In this document: one piece after another, positions 2,780-20,596 of the stretch | Layout of the letters: every line of letters starts with the position of its first letter | Numbering within the stretch: the first letter of the stretch is position 1 | DNA from: Frankia casuarinae | GTDB taxonomy: Bacteria; Actinomycetota; Actinomycetes; Frankiales; Frankiaceae | Length of the DNA: 64,000 bases | Direction: 5' to 3' | Assembly: GCF_000013345.1 (NCBI RefSeq) | Contig: NC_007777.1 | Location: forward strand, 1,240,001-1,304,000 | Made by a program: the position numbers and the translations under genes | Notes under the pieces: model-generated | The model's database searches: none | Seen by the model: only the letters and a program-made list of their open reading frames with translations | Told to the model about the DNA's origin: nothing

Positions 2780-3925
2780 TCAGCCGGTGGGTTCGACCCG
2801 GCCGTCCTCGGGCCGGCCCGTCGCCCACCTCTCCTCAATGCGGCCGTACTTCCAGACCAGCAGAGCGGCGGCCCAGGTGGCGACGAACAGGCCGACGACG
2901 AAGTAGCCGACGACGTTGAGATCCAGACCCGCGATCCAGCCCCAGAACTCGCCGGTGAGATGTGCCTTCTCGGCGAGGATGCCGAGCAGTTCGACGCTGC
3001 CGATGAGGAACGCGATCGCGACGGACAGCCCGGTAATGGTGATGTTGTAGTAGAGCTTGCGGACCGGTTGGGAGAAGGCCCAGGCATAGGCGAAGTTCAT
3101 GAACGAGCCGTCGATGGTGTCGAGCAGGCTCATGCCGGCGGCGAACAGGATCGGCAGGACGAGGACGGTGTACCAGGGCAGGCCGGCTCCGGCGGCGCCG
3201 GCGGCGAGGAGGAGCAGGGCGACCTCGGTGGCGGTGTCGAAGCCGAGACCGAACAGCACGCCGAGCGGGTACATCTGCCAGGGTCGGGTGACCGCCCTGG
3301 TGAAGCGGCCGAGGACGCGGTTCATCAGCCCGCGGGAGTTCAGCTGCTCTTCCAGGCCGGCCTCGTCGTACCCGCCGCGGCGCATGTCCCGGAAGACCCT
3401 GATGATGCTGAGGAGAATGCCGAGGTTGATCGCGGCGATGGCGTAGAGAAAGCCGCCGGAGACGGCGGTGCCGATCCAGGCGGTGATGTCGTGCAGGGTC
3501 GAGCCGTCGGCTTCGATCTGCCCGGCCAGGGAGCGGACGCCCACGCTGAACAGCAGCATCAGGGCGAACACAATCGTGGAGTGGCCGAGGGAGAAGAAGA
3601 AGCCGACGGACAGTGGGCGCTGACCGTCGGTCATGAGTTTGCGGGTGGTGTTGTCGATCGCGGCGATGTGGTCGGCGTCGAAGGCGTGGCGCAGGCCGAG
3701 GATGTAGGCGGTGACTCCGAGACCGACCCCGAAGACCTGGCCGTCGGCGCCGAAGCGGTAGTGGTGCGGCGCGATGATTGCCGTGAGCGTCACCCAGCCG
3801 ATCACGTGTAGCCCGACGATGACCGCGGCCATGCCGCCGACACGCGCCCACTCCCGGCGGTCGAGCGCCCCGCGGACCCGGGCGGGAAGACCCCCCCTCG
3901 GCATGGTGCCGGCCTGCGCGACCAT
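2780..3925 (-). CDS. HoxN/HupN/NixA family nickel-cobalt permease
   Basis: A 381-residue integral membrane protein of the NiCoT family, importing Ni2+ and/or Co2+. The signature HAFDADHIAAIDN lies in an early transmembrane helix, preceded by LGVTAYILGL. The second family block (GFFFSLGHSTIVF) and the later LFGLGFDTATEVALL and MSLLDTIDGSFM blocks are all present, so the permease is complete. The open frame extends upstream into non-homologous sequence. The ATG at 3925 was chosen because GAGGGGA lies about 8 bases before it and the membrane core follows. An ATG at 3904 is possible. A Nur-like palindrome lies 79 bp upstream. The obvious customer in this window is the [NiFe]-hydrogenase. Ni versus Co specificity cannot be read from the sequence. 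Confidence 0.92.
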   Translation of the reverse strand: MVAQAGTMPRGGLPARVRGALDRREWARVGGMAAVIVGLHVIGWVTLTAIIAPHHYRFGADGQVFGVGLGVTAYILGLRHAFDADHIAAIDNTTRKLMTDGQRPLSVGFFFSLGHSTIVFALMLLFSVGVRSLAGQIEADGSTLHDITAWIGTAVSGGFLYAIAAINLGILLSIIRVFRDMRRGGYDEAGLEEQLNSRGLMNRVLGRFTRAVTRPWQMYPLGVLFGLGFDTATEVALLLLAAGAAGAGLPWYTVLVLPILFAAGMSLLDTIDGSFMNFAYAWAFSQPVRKLYYNITITGLSVAIAFLIGSVELLGILAEKAHLTGEFWGWIAGLDLNVVGYFVVGLFVATWAAALLVWKYGRIEERWATGRPEDGRVEPTG

Positions 3926-4003
3926 GGCAGGGCTCCCCTCGCGGTGCACCCGCCGACGTGGACGGGGAAGTTTTTGTGCGGCGGGCAGAGGAACGATAAC
4001 CAG

Positions 4004-4046
4004 ATCATGGATGCTTCTGCAACTAAGTTGCAGAAGCATCCATGAT
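4004..4046. promoter_or_regulatory. Perfect 43-bp palindrome with a Nur-like operator core
   Basis: Two perfect 21-bp arms (4004-4024 and 4026-4046) flank a single central A at 4025. The centre reads CTGCAA-CTAAG-TTGCAG. This matches the Streptomyces Nur consensus tTGCaa-N5-ttGCAA in 10 of 12 positions with exactly the N5 spacing. Nur is a nickel-responsive Fur-family repressor of nickel uptake. The site is 79 bp upstream of the nickel permease start and 82 bp after the end of the aftD-like gene, so it most likely controls the permease. The arms extend beyond a normal operator, so the palindrome could also form a stable hairpin in the leader. Confidence 0.65.
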
Positions 4047-4127
4047 GCGGAGCTTTGCCGCCGCCGCGAGCCGCGGCCCCGGTCGCTGGGCATCTCCGGT
4101 CGCTGGGCATCTCCGCTCGCCCGACCT

Positions 4128-7100
4128 TCAGTGGCCCGGAGGCTCCTCCCCCGGGCCCGTCCGGGGAGACGGCGGGCCCGGCTGCCCCGCCTCGCGCCGT
4201 CGTTGCAGCTGGGCGACGAGCTGGTCGCTCGCCAGTAGCAGCACCGTGAGCCAGGAGATCGTCGCCACCTTCCCGAACGCGGCGACCCAGTCTCCGTCCG
4301 TCGGCAGCGCATGCCGGGCCTGCACCTGCAGCACGTACAGGGCGCTGACGCCCAGGCAGACCACCGGGCCGACGCGGGTCAGCAGCCGGCCGCGGGGCAC
4401 GAGCAGCGCCACGGCCGTCGCCAAGGCGACGATGACCCCCGCTACCGGGGAGACCAGCACCGCCGAGAGCAGACCCATCCCCAACACGGCGAGCACGGTG
4501 GTGCGCGGGCCGACACGCCCCGCCCGGACGGACCACGGCTCGGCTGTCGGCAGATCCGGCTCCGGTGCCCGGGACGACCGGGACGACCGGGACGCCCGCG
4601 TGGCCACGGTCGCGCGGGCTCGGCGGGTGTAGAAGATCACCAGTGCTAGGGAGAGCAGCACCGTCACCGCGGACAGCGCCAGGGCGAACCACACGATCCG
4701 TTGTGGGGTCCAGGTCAGCGTGACGGTGAACCCGGCGGCCGTCGGGGTGATCCGCCAGCCGTTCGCGTAGCCGTCCACCAGCCTGGGGGTGCCCAGGTCG
4801 GCGCCGCCCACGGTCGCCTTCCAACCCGGGGAGAGGCTCTCCGCGAGCACCAGCCAGAACGGGGTACCGGGCCGCGCCCCCGTCACGTCGACGGTGAAGG
4901 ATGTGTCGCCGGCCGATCGGACCGTCACCCGTGGCGTGGCGGCCGACGTCGTTCCGGTGGTGCCCGTCGTTCCGGTGGTGCCCGTCGTTCCGGTGGTGCC
5001 CGTCGTTCCGGTGGCGGCCGACGTCGTTCCCGTGGTGCCCGTCGCGGCCGGTGGGGTCCCGGCGGGGGAGACGGCGGAGGCGGCGCCGGTCGCGTTCAGC
5101 CACGGGCCGCCGCCGACGTCCGAGGCCAGCAGCAGGCGATCGAGATCGATGCCGGCGAGGGCCCCGTCGGCGGTCCGGATCACGTGCTCCCCCGGGCCGA
5201 GGGTGACCGGCTGGCCGCAGGTGGCGACGGTCAACCCGAGCCGGTTGACCGCGTCGGCGGTGCCCCCGGTGACCTGCACCCCCACCGGCTGACCGTCGAT
5301 GCTCAGCAGGTCGGTCCGGCAGGGCGCGGGGATCTGGGCCGGCAACAGCCCCGTCGCGGTGCTCCCTGCCGTGCCTGCCGTGGGCTGACCGGTGCCCGCC
5401 GTGGGCTGACCGGTGCCCGCGGCAGGCACGGTCGCGAGGCCGGGTATCCCGATCTCGGCGAGGCCCACCGGCATCGCCAGCGGCGAGCGACTGATGGGGT
5501 CGATGCTGGTGACGGTCCGGGCATCGTCGATGACGAACTTCCACGTGCTGCCGGTGACGGCCGGGAAGGTGAGGGTCACCTCGCGGGTGCCCCCGCGCGC
5601 CGAGGTGTCGGTGACCGCAGGCACGGTCACCGCGCCGACCCGCTGGCCGTCGACCTCGATCCCGATGCGGGTCGGGATCGAGTGCCGACCGTCGGCGACG
5701 ATCGACATCGTCATCGACGAGACCGTCAACGGGGTCGGCGAGGCGACCTGGATCCAGCTGCCTCGCGGGTTGCCGATGCCCGGGCTCCACGCGGTGGCCG
5801 GGTTTCCGTCGAAGGCGCTCGACGCCCGCGCGGCGAGCGATCCCGGCAGCCGGCCGGAGGAGGTCACCACCGGGAGGGTGGCCGGGCGGCCCAGCACCTG
5901 GTCGACGCGATCGTCGGGGGAGTAGGCGGAGACGCGGGCGGTGCCGGTGAGCGCGAACGTCCGGGCCGTGGGCAGGGAGAACGACCGGCTGATGACCGAC
6001 TCGGTGTCCTGCTTGAACGGTTCCGACGGGTTGGCCCGGTCCCGGGACACCTCCAGTGCCAGCCGGTGGCCGAGGGAGGCGGCACCGGCGGCGTCGAGGC
6101 TGTCACTCGGCATCCGCAGCACCTCCTCGGCCGTCAGCGGTGCCCCGTTCGCTCCGGGGATGGCGACCTCGGCGAACCCGACCGCGGAGACGTTGTCGTA
6201 GCTGCGCTGCCGGCCGGTGTTCGTCGCGTCGATGTGGATGCGTAACGTTCGGAAGGCCCGGGTGGGGAAGCGCACGACCTGCCCGGCGGCGGTGCGGGAG
6301 GCGTCGGTGAGCGCGACGGTCACCGGGGAGCCGCCGTCGAAGGTCAGCGTCGCCCGGGTGATCCACCGGTTGCGCGGCCCGGTCAGCGGCTGGACGAGGC
6401 GGATCTGGTTCGTCGTCGTCGGCTCGGCCAGCGTGGTCTGCCAGGCCTCCCCGGTCGGGTCGGTGAAGGCGCCGACCCGCCACGCGGTGCCCGGGTCGCC
6501 GTCGATCGCGCGGACCGGTCGGTCGGACGCCCCGTAGGAGAAGCTGTTCCCGTAGCTGGTGGCGGTCACCTCGGCGATCTTCGCCGGGGATCCCGGGGCG
6601 TGCAGGGTGGCTGTGGTCTCGCTGGTGACGTTCTGATCGGGGAACAGCGGCAGCCGGTTGTCGTTCGGGTCCTTCGCCAGCGGCCTGACTCCGGGTTGCT
6701 CGACGTAGCCGAAGTTCTCCCGGATGCCCGTCCACCGTTCGGCGCGCCGCCGGTTGGTGTCGGTGACGAGCAGGTCCGCACCGTCGTCGAGGGCTTGGCG
6801 CATCGCGGTGGGATCGGTGGCGAGTTCCGGGGCGTAGAGGATCGCCCGCCCGTCGGCGATTGGCTCGGCGAGCAGGCCGGAGGCCGCCGCGTCCACCAGC
6901 GCCTCCCCGTTGCCGCTGACGAGCAGGGGCCGCGCGGTGGTGGCGGTGCGCACGATCGGCTGCGCGCCGCTGACCGGGAAGACGGCCAGCGCCGGCGGAT
7001 CGGGCACCGACGGGTCGGTGCCGAGGGTGACCTCGTCGGTGAACGGGATGCCGGGATCCTCGGCAACCGGCGGTCCGAAGGTCTGTGGTACACCCAGCCC

Positions 7101-8984
7101 GTCCGGTCTGTTCGAGGTGAACAGGTTCCAGGTGGCCCGGGGGCGCGGGGTCCGGTACCGCTCGTAGGCGAGGTTGCTGCGCAGCACCACGTCGCCTACG
7201 CCCATCAACCGGGCGAGGTCCGGCAGGGCGGAGGTCTCGAACACCCCCTCCTGCAGCCGGCGGTCCAGCGAGCGGACCAGGTCGACGCTGCCCGCCTCGC
7301 CGTAGGGGATGAGTTCCCGCATGACCAGCGGACGGTCCATCAGCCCCTCGGTGACCGGGTCGAGGGTGCTTCCCCAGCGGTAGTGGGAGAAGTCGGCACC
7401 GGGAAGCTCCAGCACCCGGGTGCCGTTGTTCCTGGTGTCCAGGGCGCGCGCGAGTTCGGTCTCGTAGGCGGGGACGTGCTCGGGGCGTTCGAGTAACGGC
7501 TCGACGAACTCGCCGCGGAACAGCGGTGACATGTCGAGGGCCAGCAACAGCAGGACCACCCCGGTGGCGAGCGGCGGAACCAGCCGTCGGCGCCGGCCCG
7601 ACCGGACCGGCCGCCCACCGGGGGCAGCCGTAGCGGTCGGACCGGCCGCCGCGTACCGCTCCCAGAGAGCTGCGAGCCCGCCCGCGAGCAGCACCGACAT
7701 GCCCAGTGCCACCATGGGGACCGCCCGGGGCAGCGAACGCAGCGCGAGACCGGCCGTCGATCCCTCGGCGAAGTCCTTGAACAGCCGTCCCCAGGGAGAG
7801 GGATCGTCGTACGGGTAGACGCCGACGGCGATCGTGGTGCCCAGCAGGATCAGCGCGACGAAGTAGCCGCGCTGGCCCCAGCGGATGGCCGAGGCGCCGA
7901 TCAGGGCGAGGATGGGTATGGTGAAGCTGACCGCGATCAGCCAGATGCTCTGGGTGTAGTGGGTGGCCGGCCCGATCCACGGACCGAGCGCGTCCTGTCC
8001 ATAGAAGAACCAGTTGCCCAGGCCCCGCAGCACCTCGGAGGCCTGCGAGCTGCTGGCGACCGTCTCGATCGTCTCGGTGAAGGCGAGGACGTTGAGGCCA
8101 TAACCGGCCTGGGTGTAGAGCCCCGCGATCCACCACGCCGACGTGACGAGGACGACCAGCACCGCACGGGTGCACATACTCACGGCGGCGCCGAGTCGGA
8201 CCTCGCGGGTACCCCAGACGGCGAACGGTATCCACAGCAGTGGGGCGAACAGGATGAAGATCAGGCTGGAGGCGTTGATGCTGCCGATCGTCGTGACCAC
8301 GAGGGCGAAGGCGGCGGGGAAGCGCCATCCGGCGGGACGCCAGCCGGCCCGGCCGGGCTCCGCCTCGCGCAACCCGCGCACGGTGATGCCGATCAGCCAG
8401 CCCAGTCCGGCGTAGGGCAGCAGGATCGCCGAGATCCGCGCCTCGTATTCCAGGATGTAGGGCGAGAGCATGTAGCCGAACGCGGCGACGAACGCGAAGC
8501 GGTCGGGCCAGCGCAACGAGCGGAGCAAGAACAGCACGCCGGTGCCGGCGCCGAACAGGATGGAGCCCGTCCACAGCCGCTGCGCGACCCAGTCGGGCAG
8601 GCCGACGAGATCCAGCAGCCAGTAGAAGGCGCCCTGCGGAAACAGATAGCCGATGTTCTGATGGGTGACGGTGCCCATGCCGATGCCGGGGTCCCACATG
8701 GAGACCGCTCGGCGCAGCATCCGGCTCGGATCGAGGTAGAGGTATGCCTTGGTGTCGGCGCCGATCTTTCCCGGTGCCGTCGCCAGCAGCGGCAGATACG
8801 CCACGGCGGCCAGCACCAGGGTCGGCCAAGAGGGCGGTCGCCGCCGGCGGATCGCCGCCGAGGCCGGACCGGACTCGGGGCGACCGGACTCGGGGCGACC
8901 GGAAGCGGGGCGATCGGACGAGGCCGGACCGGAGGGCGACGTGGTCACGGTCACCGGATCACCGCAGTCACCGGTGCGGCCCAA
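4128..8984 (-). CDS. AftD-like alpha-(1->3)-arabinofuranosyltransferase (DUF3367)
   Basis: A very large membrane protein of about 1,600 residues. The N-terminal third is a GT-C fold with many transmembrane helices and an early acidic loop (KIGADTKAYLYLDP). Two discoidin (F5/8 type C) carbohydrate-binding domains follow at about residues 795-930 (AIDGDPGTAWRVG) and 1035-1150 (AFDGNPATAWSPG). A final membrane region lies at about 1430-1530. This is the layout of mycobacterial AftD, which adds arabinose branches to arabinan in the outer cell wall. A Thr/Gly-rich tandem repeat sits near residues 1315-1345, and a Ser/Gly/Arg/Pro repeat near the N-terminus. The frame opens with TTG at 8984; a GTG at 8954 is an alternative. 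It overlaps the upstream glycosyltransferase stop, suggesting an operon. Donor and acceptor in this organism are unknown. Confidence 0.85.
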   Translation of the reverse strand: MGRTGDCGDPVTVTTSPSGPASSDRPASGRPESGRPESGPASAAIRRRRPPSWPTLVLAAVAYLPLLATAPGKIGADTKAYLYLDPSRMLRRAVSMWDPGIGMGTVTHQNIGYLFPQGAFYWLLDLVGLPDWVAQRLWTGSILFGAGTGVLFLLRSLRWPDRFAFVAAFGYMLSPYILEYEARISAILLPYAGLGWLIGITVRGLREAEPGRAGWRPAGWRFPAAFALVVTTIGSINASSLIFILFAPLLWIPFAVWGTREVRLGAAVSMCTRAVLVVLVTSAWWIAGLYTQAGYGLNVLAFTETIETVASSSQASEVLRGLGNWFFYGQDALGPWIGPATHYTQSIWLIAVSFTIPILALIGASAIRWGQRGYFVALILLGTTIAVGVYPYDDPSPWGRLFKDFAEGSTAGLALRSLPRAVPMVALGMSVLLAGGLAALWERYAAAGPTATAAPGGRPVRSGRRRRLVPPLATGVVLLLLALDMSPLFRGEFVEPLLERPEHVPAYETELARALDTRNNGTRVLELPGADFSHYRWGSTLDPVTEGLMDRPLVMRELIPYGEAGSVDLVRSLDRRLQEGVFETSALPDLARLMGVGDVVLRSNLAYERYRTPRPRATWNLFTSNRPDGLGVPQTFGPPVAEDPGIPFTDEVTLGTDPSVPDPPALAVFPVSGAQPIVRTATTARPLLVSGNGEALVDAAASGLLAEPIADGRAILYAPELATDPTAMRQALDDGADLLVTDTNRRRAERWTGIRENFGYVEQPGVRPLAKDPNDNRLPLFPDQNVTSETTATLHAPGSPAKIAEVTATSYGNSFSYGASDRPVRAIDGDPGTAWRVGAFTDPTGEAWQTTLAEPTTTNQIRLVQPLTGPRNRWITRATLTFDGGSPVTVALTDASRTAAGQVVRFPTRAFRTLRIHIDATNTGRQRSYDNVSAVGFAEVAIPGANGAPLTAEEVLRMPSDSLDAAGAASLGHRLALEVSRDRANPSEPFKQDTESVISRSFSLPTARTFALTGTARVSAYSPDDRVDQVLGRPATLPVVTSSGRLPGSLAARASSAFDGNPATAWSPGIGNPRGSWIQVASPTPLTVSSMTMSIVADGRHSIPTRIGIEVDGQRVGAVTVPAVTDTSARGGTREVTLTFPAVTGSTWKFVIDDARTVTSIDPISRSPLAMPVGLAEIGIPGLATVPAAGTGQPTAGTGQPTAGTAGSTATGLLPAQIPAPCRTDLLSIDGQPVGVQVTGGTADAVNRLGLTVATCGQPVTLGPGEHVIRTADGALAGIDLDRLLLASDVGGGPWLNATGAASAVSPAGTPPAATGTTGTTSAATGTTGTTGTTGTTGTTGTTGTTSAATPRVTVRSAGDTSFTVDVTGARPGTPFWLVLAESLSPGWKATVGGADLGTPRLVDGYANGWRITPTAAGFTVTLTWTPQRIVWFALALSAVTVLLSLALVIFYTRRARATVATRASRSSRSSRAPEPDLPTAEPWSVRAGRVGPRTTVLAVLGMGLLSAVLVSPVAGVIVALATAVALLVPRGRLLTRVGPVVCLGVSALYVLQVQARHALPTDGDWVAAFGKVATISWLTVLLLASDQLVAQLQRRREAGQPGPPSPRTGPGEEPPGH
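4948..5040. repeat. 18-bp in-frame tandem repeat inside the aftD-like gene
   Basis: Three identical units GTCGTTCCGGTGGTGCCC run from 4948 to 5001. A variant unit follows at 5002-5019, and after a 3-base step another variant at 5023-5040. On the coding strand it encodes Gly-Thr-Thr-Gly-Thr-Thr-type residues in a linker, and the frame is kept. Confidence 0.9.
8870..8914. repeat. 15-bp in-frame tandem repeat at the aftD-like N-terminus
   Basis: Units CGGACTCGGGGCGAC at 8870-8884 and 8885-8899 are identical; 8900-8914 is a variant. They encode repeated Ser-Gly-Arg-Pro-Glu residues in the cytoplasmic N-terminal tail, ahead of the first membrane helix. Confidence 0.85.
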
Positions 8985-20557: not shown

Positions 20558-20596
20558 CGGTCGGGGCCCGGGGATCTTCTCCCCGGGCCCCGACCG
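20558..20596 (+). terminator. Strong hairpin terminator after rpsA
   Basis: A perfect 17-bp GC-rich stem (20558-20574 with 20580-20596) closes a 5-nt loop TCTTC. It lies 18 nt after the rpsA stop and is followed by a short T-containing stretch. Confidence 0.85.

Follow-up and report, generated by a model that had tools for sequence, protein, structure and literature searches.

A predicted Nur operator within an extended, covarying palindrome at the promoter of a NiCoT nickel permease gene in Frankia casuarinae

Frankia are nitrogen-fixing plant symbionts. The window considered here is a 64,000-nucleotide stretch of the F. casuarinae genome (G000; 5,433,628 bases in one contig), and it contains a perfect 43-bp palindrome in front of a gene for a NiCoT nickel permease. 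The core of the palindrome (4017-4033) is very probably an operator for Nur, through which nickel-loaded Nur would repress the permease; the nickel-dependence of binding and repression is proposed on the basis of sequence comparison. A Nur operator is a known kind of switch, and this one is unusual solely in having an extended dyad that covaries; the arms of the dyad are not random and Nur alone does not explain them. The arrangement gives Frankia a concrete, testable candidate for a nickel-uptake switch with a recurrent promoter geometry. The features, in window coordinates, are as follows:

4004..4046, no strand given: perfect 43-bp palindrome (21-1-21), from a repeat search
4017..4033, minus strand: Nur box core, CTGCAA-CTTAG-TTGCAG, matching 10 of 12 positions of tTGCaa-N5-ttGCAA
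4017..4022, minus strand: predicted -35 element, TTGCAG, identical with the downstream half-site of the Nur box, from conserved geometry
3993..3998, minus strand: predicted -10 element, TATCGT, 18 nt past TTGCAG, from conserved geometry
4034..4046, no strand given: upstream-side outer arm of the operator, extending 13 pairs past the box, from arm comparison
4004..4016, no strand given: outer arm on the downstream side, within the -35/-10 spacer, from arm comparison
2780..3925, minus strand: NiCoT nickel permease of the NicT type (381 aa), from the ORF list and profile matches
4128..8984, minus strand: AftD-like arabinofuranosyltransferase, upstream of and co-directional with the NiCoT gene, from an ORF and a profile match

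The arms of the palindrome (4004-4024 and 4026-4046) are 21 nt each and 100% complementary about a 1-nt centre; the preliminary description of a perfect 43-bp palindrome with 21-bp arms around a single central base proved exact on recheck. These are the longest perfect arms in the 464 kb sampled (the window and twenty 20-kb stretches, with a GC content of 70.3%; loops of 0-6 allowed), the runners-up having 19, 18 and 17; arms of at least 21 with a 1-nt centre are expected by chance about 3e-5 times per 5.43-Mb genome at a pair probability of 0.291, in agreement with the rarity first claimed for them. The palindrome has a GC content of 42% and is AT-rich for this genome. Other perfect palindromes in the genome sample are found at L208:5650-5687 (19-bp arms) and L208:14339-14375 (18-bp arms), which correspond to about C1:1455650 and C1:1464339; the window also holds a GC-rich perfect inverted repeat (17-5-17) at 20558-20596.

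The permease matches NF052500 (NicT-type NiCoT) with 563.6 bits at a cut-off of 450, and has a Pfam NicO match as well. Its position downstream of the palindrome stands as first described, whereas the distance of 79 bp given with it is a difference of positions; 78 bases actually lie between the palindrome and the NiCoT ATG (first base 3925, minus strand). A 17-bp unit occurs twice in exact tandem at 4079-4112, between the aftD-like gene and the palindrome, and tandem repeats of 18 bp occur within the AftD-like gene at 4947-5000.

The centre of the palindrome was initially recognised as a Nur-like box, and it does have the spacing of the published consensus, tTGCaa-N5-ttGCAA (PMC3919588), besides the 10 matching letters. 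Boxes of this kind recur before NiCoT genes. The comparison was made on 111 rows, comprising 31 loci (family and class relatives) and 80 named loci among the matches listed, with three duplicate locus records (L123, L125, L182) and four short windows included, the window of L170 (score 8) being faulty at a contig end; L025-L028, L030 and L097, which are fragments or distant relatives, were left out. With the best box per upstream window taken as the score, 58 of the 111 NiCoT rows listed score at least 10, against 5 of 2220 first-order Markov control sequences; at a score of at least 9 the counts are 84 of 111 and 106 of 2220. Thirteen rows score 7 or below, eight of them in genomes without a clear Nur and five in Streptomycetaceae with Nur. 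A literature search, with most subscription papers outside its reach, met no Nur box before a NiCoT gene; the comparison widens the reach of the box from the sod and nik genes of Streptomyces to NiCoT permeases in many Actinobacteria.

The box overlaps the predicted promoter of the nickel-uptake gene, and the geometry of this overlap is conserved across loci. An A2/T6 hexamer is located 16-18 nt past the downstream half-site in all 11 type-I Frankiaceae loci, G000 included (at 18 nt in 8 of them). All 16 type-II loci have it 17 nt past the upstream half-site, and 19 of the 32 other boxed loci have it 17-18 nt past the downstream half-site; the highest hexamer counts at off-peak offsets are 2, 7 and 4 for type I, type II and the others. 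Because the hexamer stands at a recurrent spacing from the half-site, the half-site is considered to double as the -35 element, and the predicted promoter would start NiCoT transcription in G000 near 3986, downstream of the palindrome. Comparison (box recurrence, promoter geometry and a Nur-clade protein) thus gives good support to the putative Nur operator over the nickel-permease promoter that had been proposed from the window.

When nickel is plentiful, a Ni-Nur dimer would occupy the box at 4017-4033; as the downstream half-site of the box is the predicted NiCoT -35 element, RNA polymerase would be excluded and nickel uptake shut off. When nickel is scarce, Nur would let go and the permease would be made. 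The S. coelicolor Nur box lies over the sodF promoter, and nikABCDE is also repressed by Nur, according to the accessible parts of PMC3919588 and PMC7055735; the Frankia system resembles it in the 6-5-6 dyad, the 10 of 12 letters, the promoter overlap (predicted in Frankia), the clade of the regulator and a nickel-uptake gene as the target. It differs in that the target is a NiCoT permease and not an ABC importer, the reader would be a divergent Frankia-type Nur, and the box sits inside a perfect palindrome of 43 bp. Other Frankiaceae and Actinobacteria have NiCoT operators with this box and promoter geometry, but most of these are without extended arms.

G000 contains three Fur-family proteins (L046, L047 and L048), and the search for a nur homologue, suggested at the outset as a check, found the Nur-clade protein L048, so that the refuting case named there, a genome with no such homologue, does not apply. 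Its best match is PDB 3eyy (93.5 bits against 59), the structure of S. coelicolor Nur (PMC7055735). A 33-row tree of the Fur family, in which the outgroup rows stand on long branches, places the Frankia-type proteins (the L048 type) and canonical Nur in a joint clade (96/89) apart from Zur and PerR/Fur, each of the two forming its own group (94/95 and 93/86). L048 keeps H33, H70, H72, H88, H90 and H126. The Ni-site histidines, which we take to be 70, 72 and 126, are kept in the G000 row and in 27 of the 27 locus rows read (3 of the 30 loci have no row); at the M-site, presumably formed by 33, 86, 88 and 90, L048 keeps all but H86, a residue that 13 of the 14 canonical Frankiaceae Nur rows lack as well. 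The protein is divergent, at 36% to 3eyy compared with 58-63% for the 14 canonical Frankiaceae rows; at E <=0.001 it has matches in 35 of 35 family genomes, other Fur paralogues among them. By eye, a gcp/TsaD-like ORF comes after the L048 gene, and the nur of cluster-I Frankia is described as adjoining gcp and ureG (PMC4531530). The Frankia-type Nur protein is not new, since the accessible part of that paper already describes two Frankia Nur groups and a nur beside gcp.

That the box is read by another Fur-family protein, or in response to another metal, is considered very improbable. Such proteins are available in G000, where L046 is Zur-like (3mwm, 167.5 bits) and L047 is PerR-like (2fe3, 82.1 bits; adjoining a rubrerythrin-like ORF, by eye), and 4 of 24 boxed genomes are without a clear Nur; against this, the box fits the Nur consensus (PMC3919588), and box and Nur co-occur. 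Among named loci, Nur is present with 20 of the 24 that are boxed and with 8 of the 26 that are unboxed (P = 2e-4, kinship ignored); outside the Streptomycetaceae the counts are 7 of 11 boxed and 0 of 18 unboxed (P = 2e-4, kinship ignored). In these counts boxed means a score of at least 10 and unboxed a score of 8 or less, score-9 loci being left out; of the named loci, the sample covers 24 of the 30 boxed ones and 26 of the 27 unboxed ones, L153 and L190 share one genome, and L167 (titled Saccharothrix) is grouped with the Streptomycetaceae. A Nur call requires at least 85 bits, there being no score between 86 and 74, and the match of L179, at 86 bits, spans 63 residues only. Gene neighbourhood also favours Nur as the reader: in G019 a nickel-insertion gene and def flank a Frankia-type nur, and the FeSOD gene (sodF) and a NiCoT gene belong to the same cluster.

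Eight Streptomycetaceae loci have Nur in the genome, yet no box before that NiCoT. The boxed L157, L160, L164 and L181 have no clear Nur of either type (Frankia-type best 40-53 bits); as these are 4 of the 24 boxed genomes, a box does not always come with a recognised Nur, and another regulator may read it in these four. Nur-type boxes are located at the NiCoT promoters of L164, L165 and L181 (Mycobacterium), L160 (Nocardia) and L157.

The long arms had been singled out as needing an explanation beyond the box, and the comparison of relatives agrees. At least five perfect pairs beyond the 17-bp box are found in 6 of 25 distinct Frankiaceae operators (shuffled flanks have a mean of 0.41, and 0 of 5000 were as high), and none of the 32 other boxed loci has an extension above 2 pairs. 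The number of pairs beyond the box is 5-7 in L002-L004, L006, L007, L009 and L015, and 13 in L001. Across 11 type-I operators, 87.9% of the cells for the six pairs closest to the box hold a standard pair, with G-U counted as one, and each of the six has changed on both sides, which is covariation; independent events are fewer than cells, as the operators are related (L002, L003, L004 and L006 share arms). Pairing drops to 29-50% if the partners are slid by 1-3. The next eight flanking pairs are 46.6% paired (42 of 500 shuffles as high; 16 of 500 for the covariation score); they show so little that perfect pairing in the outermost arm is a trait of G000 alone, and the genomes examined included no close sister carrying this permease type.

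The arms might provide extra protein recognition, in the form of Nur contacts or a second dimer beyond the 17-bp box, though this is thought to be unlikely. Pyrimidine-rich left arms (GCTTC, GCTCC, ACTTC) are common to L001-L004, L006 and L007, and in L001-L004 and L006 the core TGC has another TGC 6 bp farther out, as recognition would have it; the arms of L009 and L015 are different, however, and the six flanking pairs changed on both sides and the 32 unextended loci also speak against it. Letter recognition fits poorly with concerted arm changes, and the individual letters of the arms are probably not what is read. A double Nur site, one of the second roles offered in the preliminary description, was rejected, as the 43 bp hold a single TGC-N9-GCA pair and the letters of the arms differ between relatives.

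The other proposed second role, an RNA hairpin, fares no better. A transcript across the palindrome would fold very stably (-58 kcal/mol for 101 nt, z -8.5), and the flanking pairs covary as those of an RNA stem would, so the palindrome might be a leader hairpin of NiCoT or a terminator of the AftD-like gene; the conserved -35/-10 geometry, however, places the predicted NiCoT start downstream of the stem, the arm letters vary, and the sole Rfam match is far under gathering (26 against 100 bits). No intrinsic terminator, a stem followed by a T-run, is present in 3900-4200 on either strand. The upstream neighbour is divergent in L007 and L009 (= L125), so no terminator is needed there, yet these loci retain 5 and 6 extra pairs; L091, with a divergent neighbour as well, retains 3. 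Terminator and RNA leader were both rejected as main readings on account of the predicted start, the missing T-run and the divergent neighbours, and a role of the palindrome as RNA is regarded as extremely doubtful.

The arms may be a selected structure, for example a supercoiling-dependent cruciform that competes with polymerase or aids Nur, in which case self-complementarity, and not the letters, would be what is conserved in type-I Frankiaceae NiCoT operators; this is quite unlikely. We lean towards template-switch mutation around the operator dyad as the main process that created the arms and maintained their complementarity, since template switching would yield concerted arm change without function. 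Template switching perfects quasipalindromes in E. coli (PMC7202029) and has been proposed to create and maintain hairpins (PMC8794818), as far as the accessible parts of these papers go. The Frankia operator resembles these quasipalindromes in that its dyad arms turn complementary in concert; it differs in that template switching is known to perfect the arms of the former (PMC7202029), whereas for the Frankia operator a switch is only proposed, from the comparison. The covarying arms lend themselves to the question of which process perfects operator palindromes, template-switch mutation or selection.

A genome-wide scan for the box, also proposed initially, returned the site before the NiCoT gene of G000 and no other convincing nickel target. 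The pattern scans gave weak sites, and no nickel gene was seen by eye in the neighbourhoods inspected (13 loci, then 3); these sites say little, because matches to backward control patterns outnumber those to the real ones (130, 35 and 58 against 33, 13 and 21). A search for Ni-SOD had no match in G000, but none in control genomes either, which leaves its absence unproven. The sodF gene is a known Nur target in Streptomyces (PMC3919588, PMC7055735). Within its genus, G000 and 12 further genomes have no box of at least 10 in any of their 13 sodF loci; boxes at this score occur in the sodF loci L105, L106, L109, L110 and L114 of other genera, some more than 400 nt upstream, and in the relatives G023 and G044 one box is flanked by NiCoT on one side and, on the other, by a small divergent gene followed by sodF. 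Nur-like boxes in sodF loci of other Frankiaceae genera are located at L106:766-799, L109:833-849 and L114:2565-2581. A further Nur-like box, ATGCAACAGTGTTGCAT, lies between the divergent nur and def of G019 (L074:2088-2104), and another where a tsaD-like ORF of G013 begins (L075:2690-2706); these two possibly indicate autoregulation or a wider regulon.
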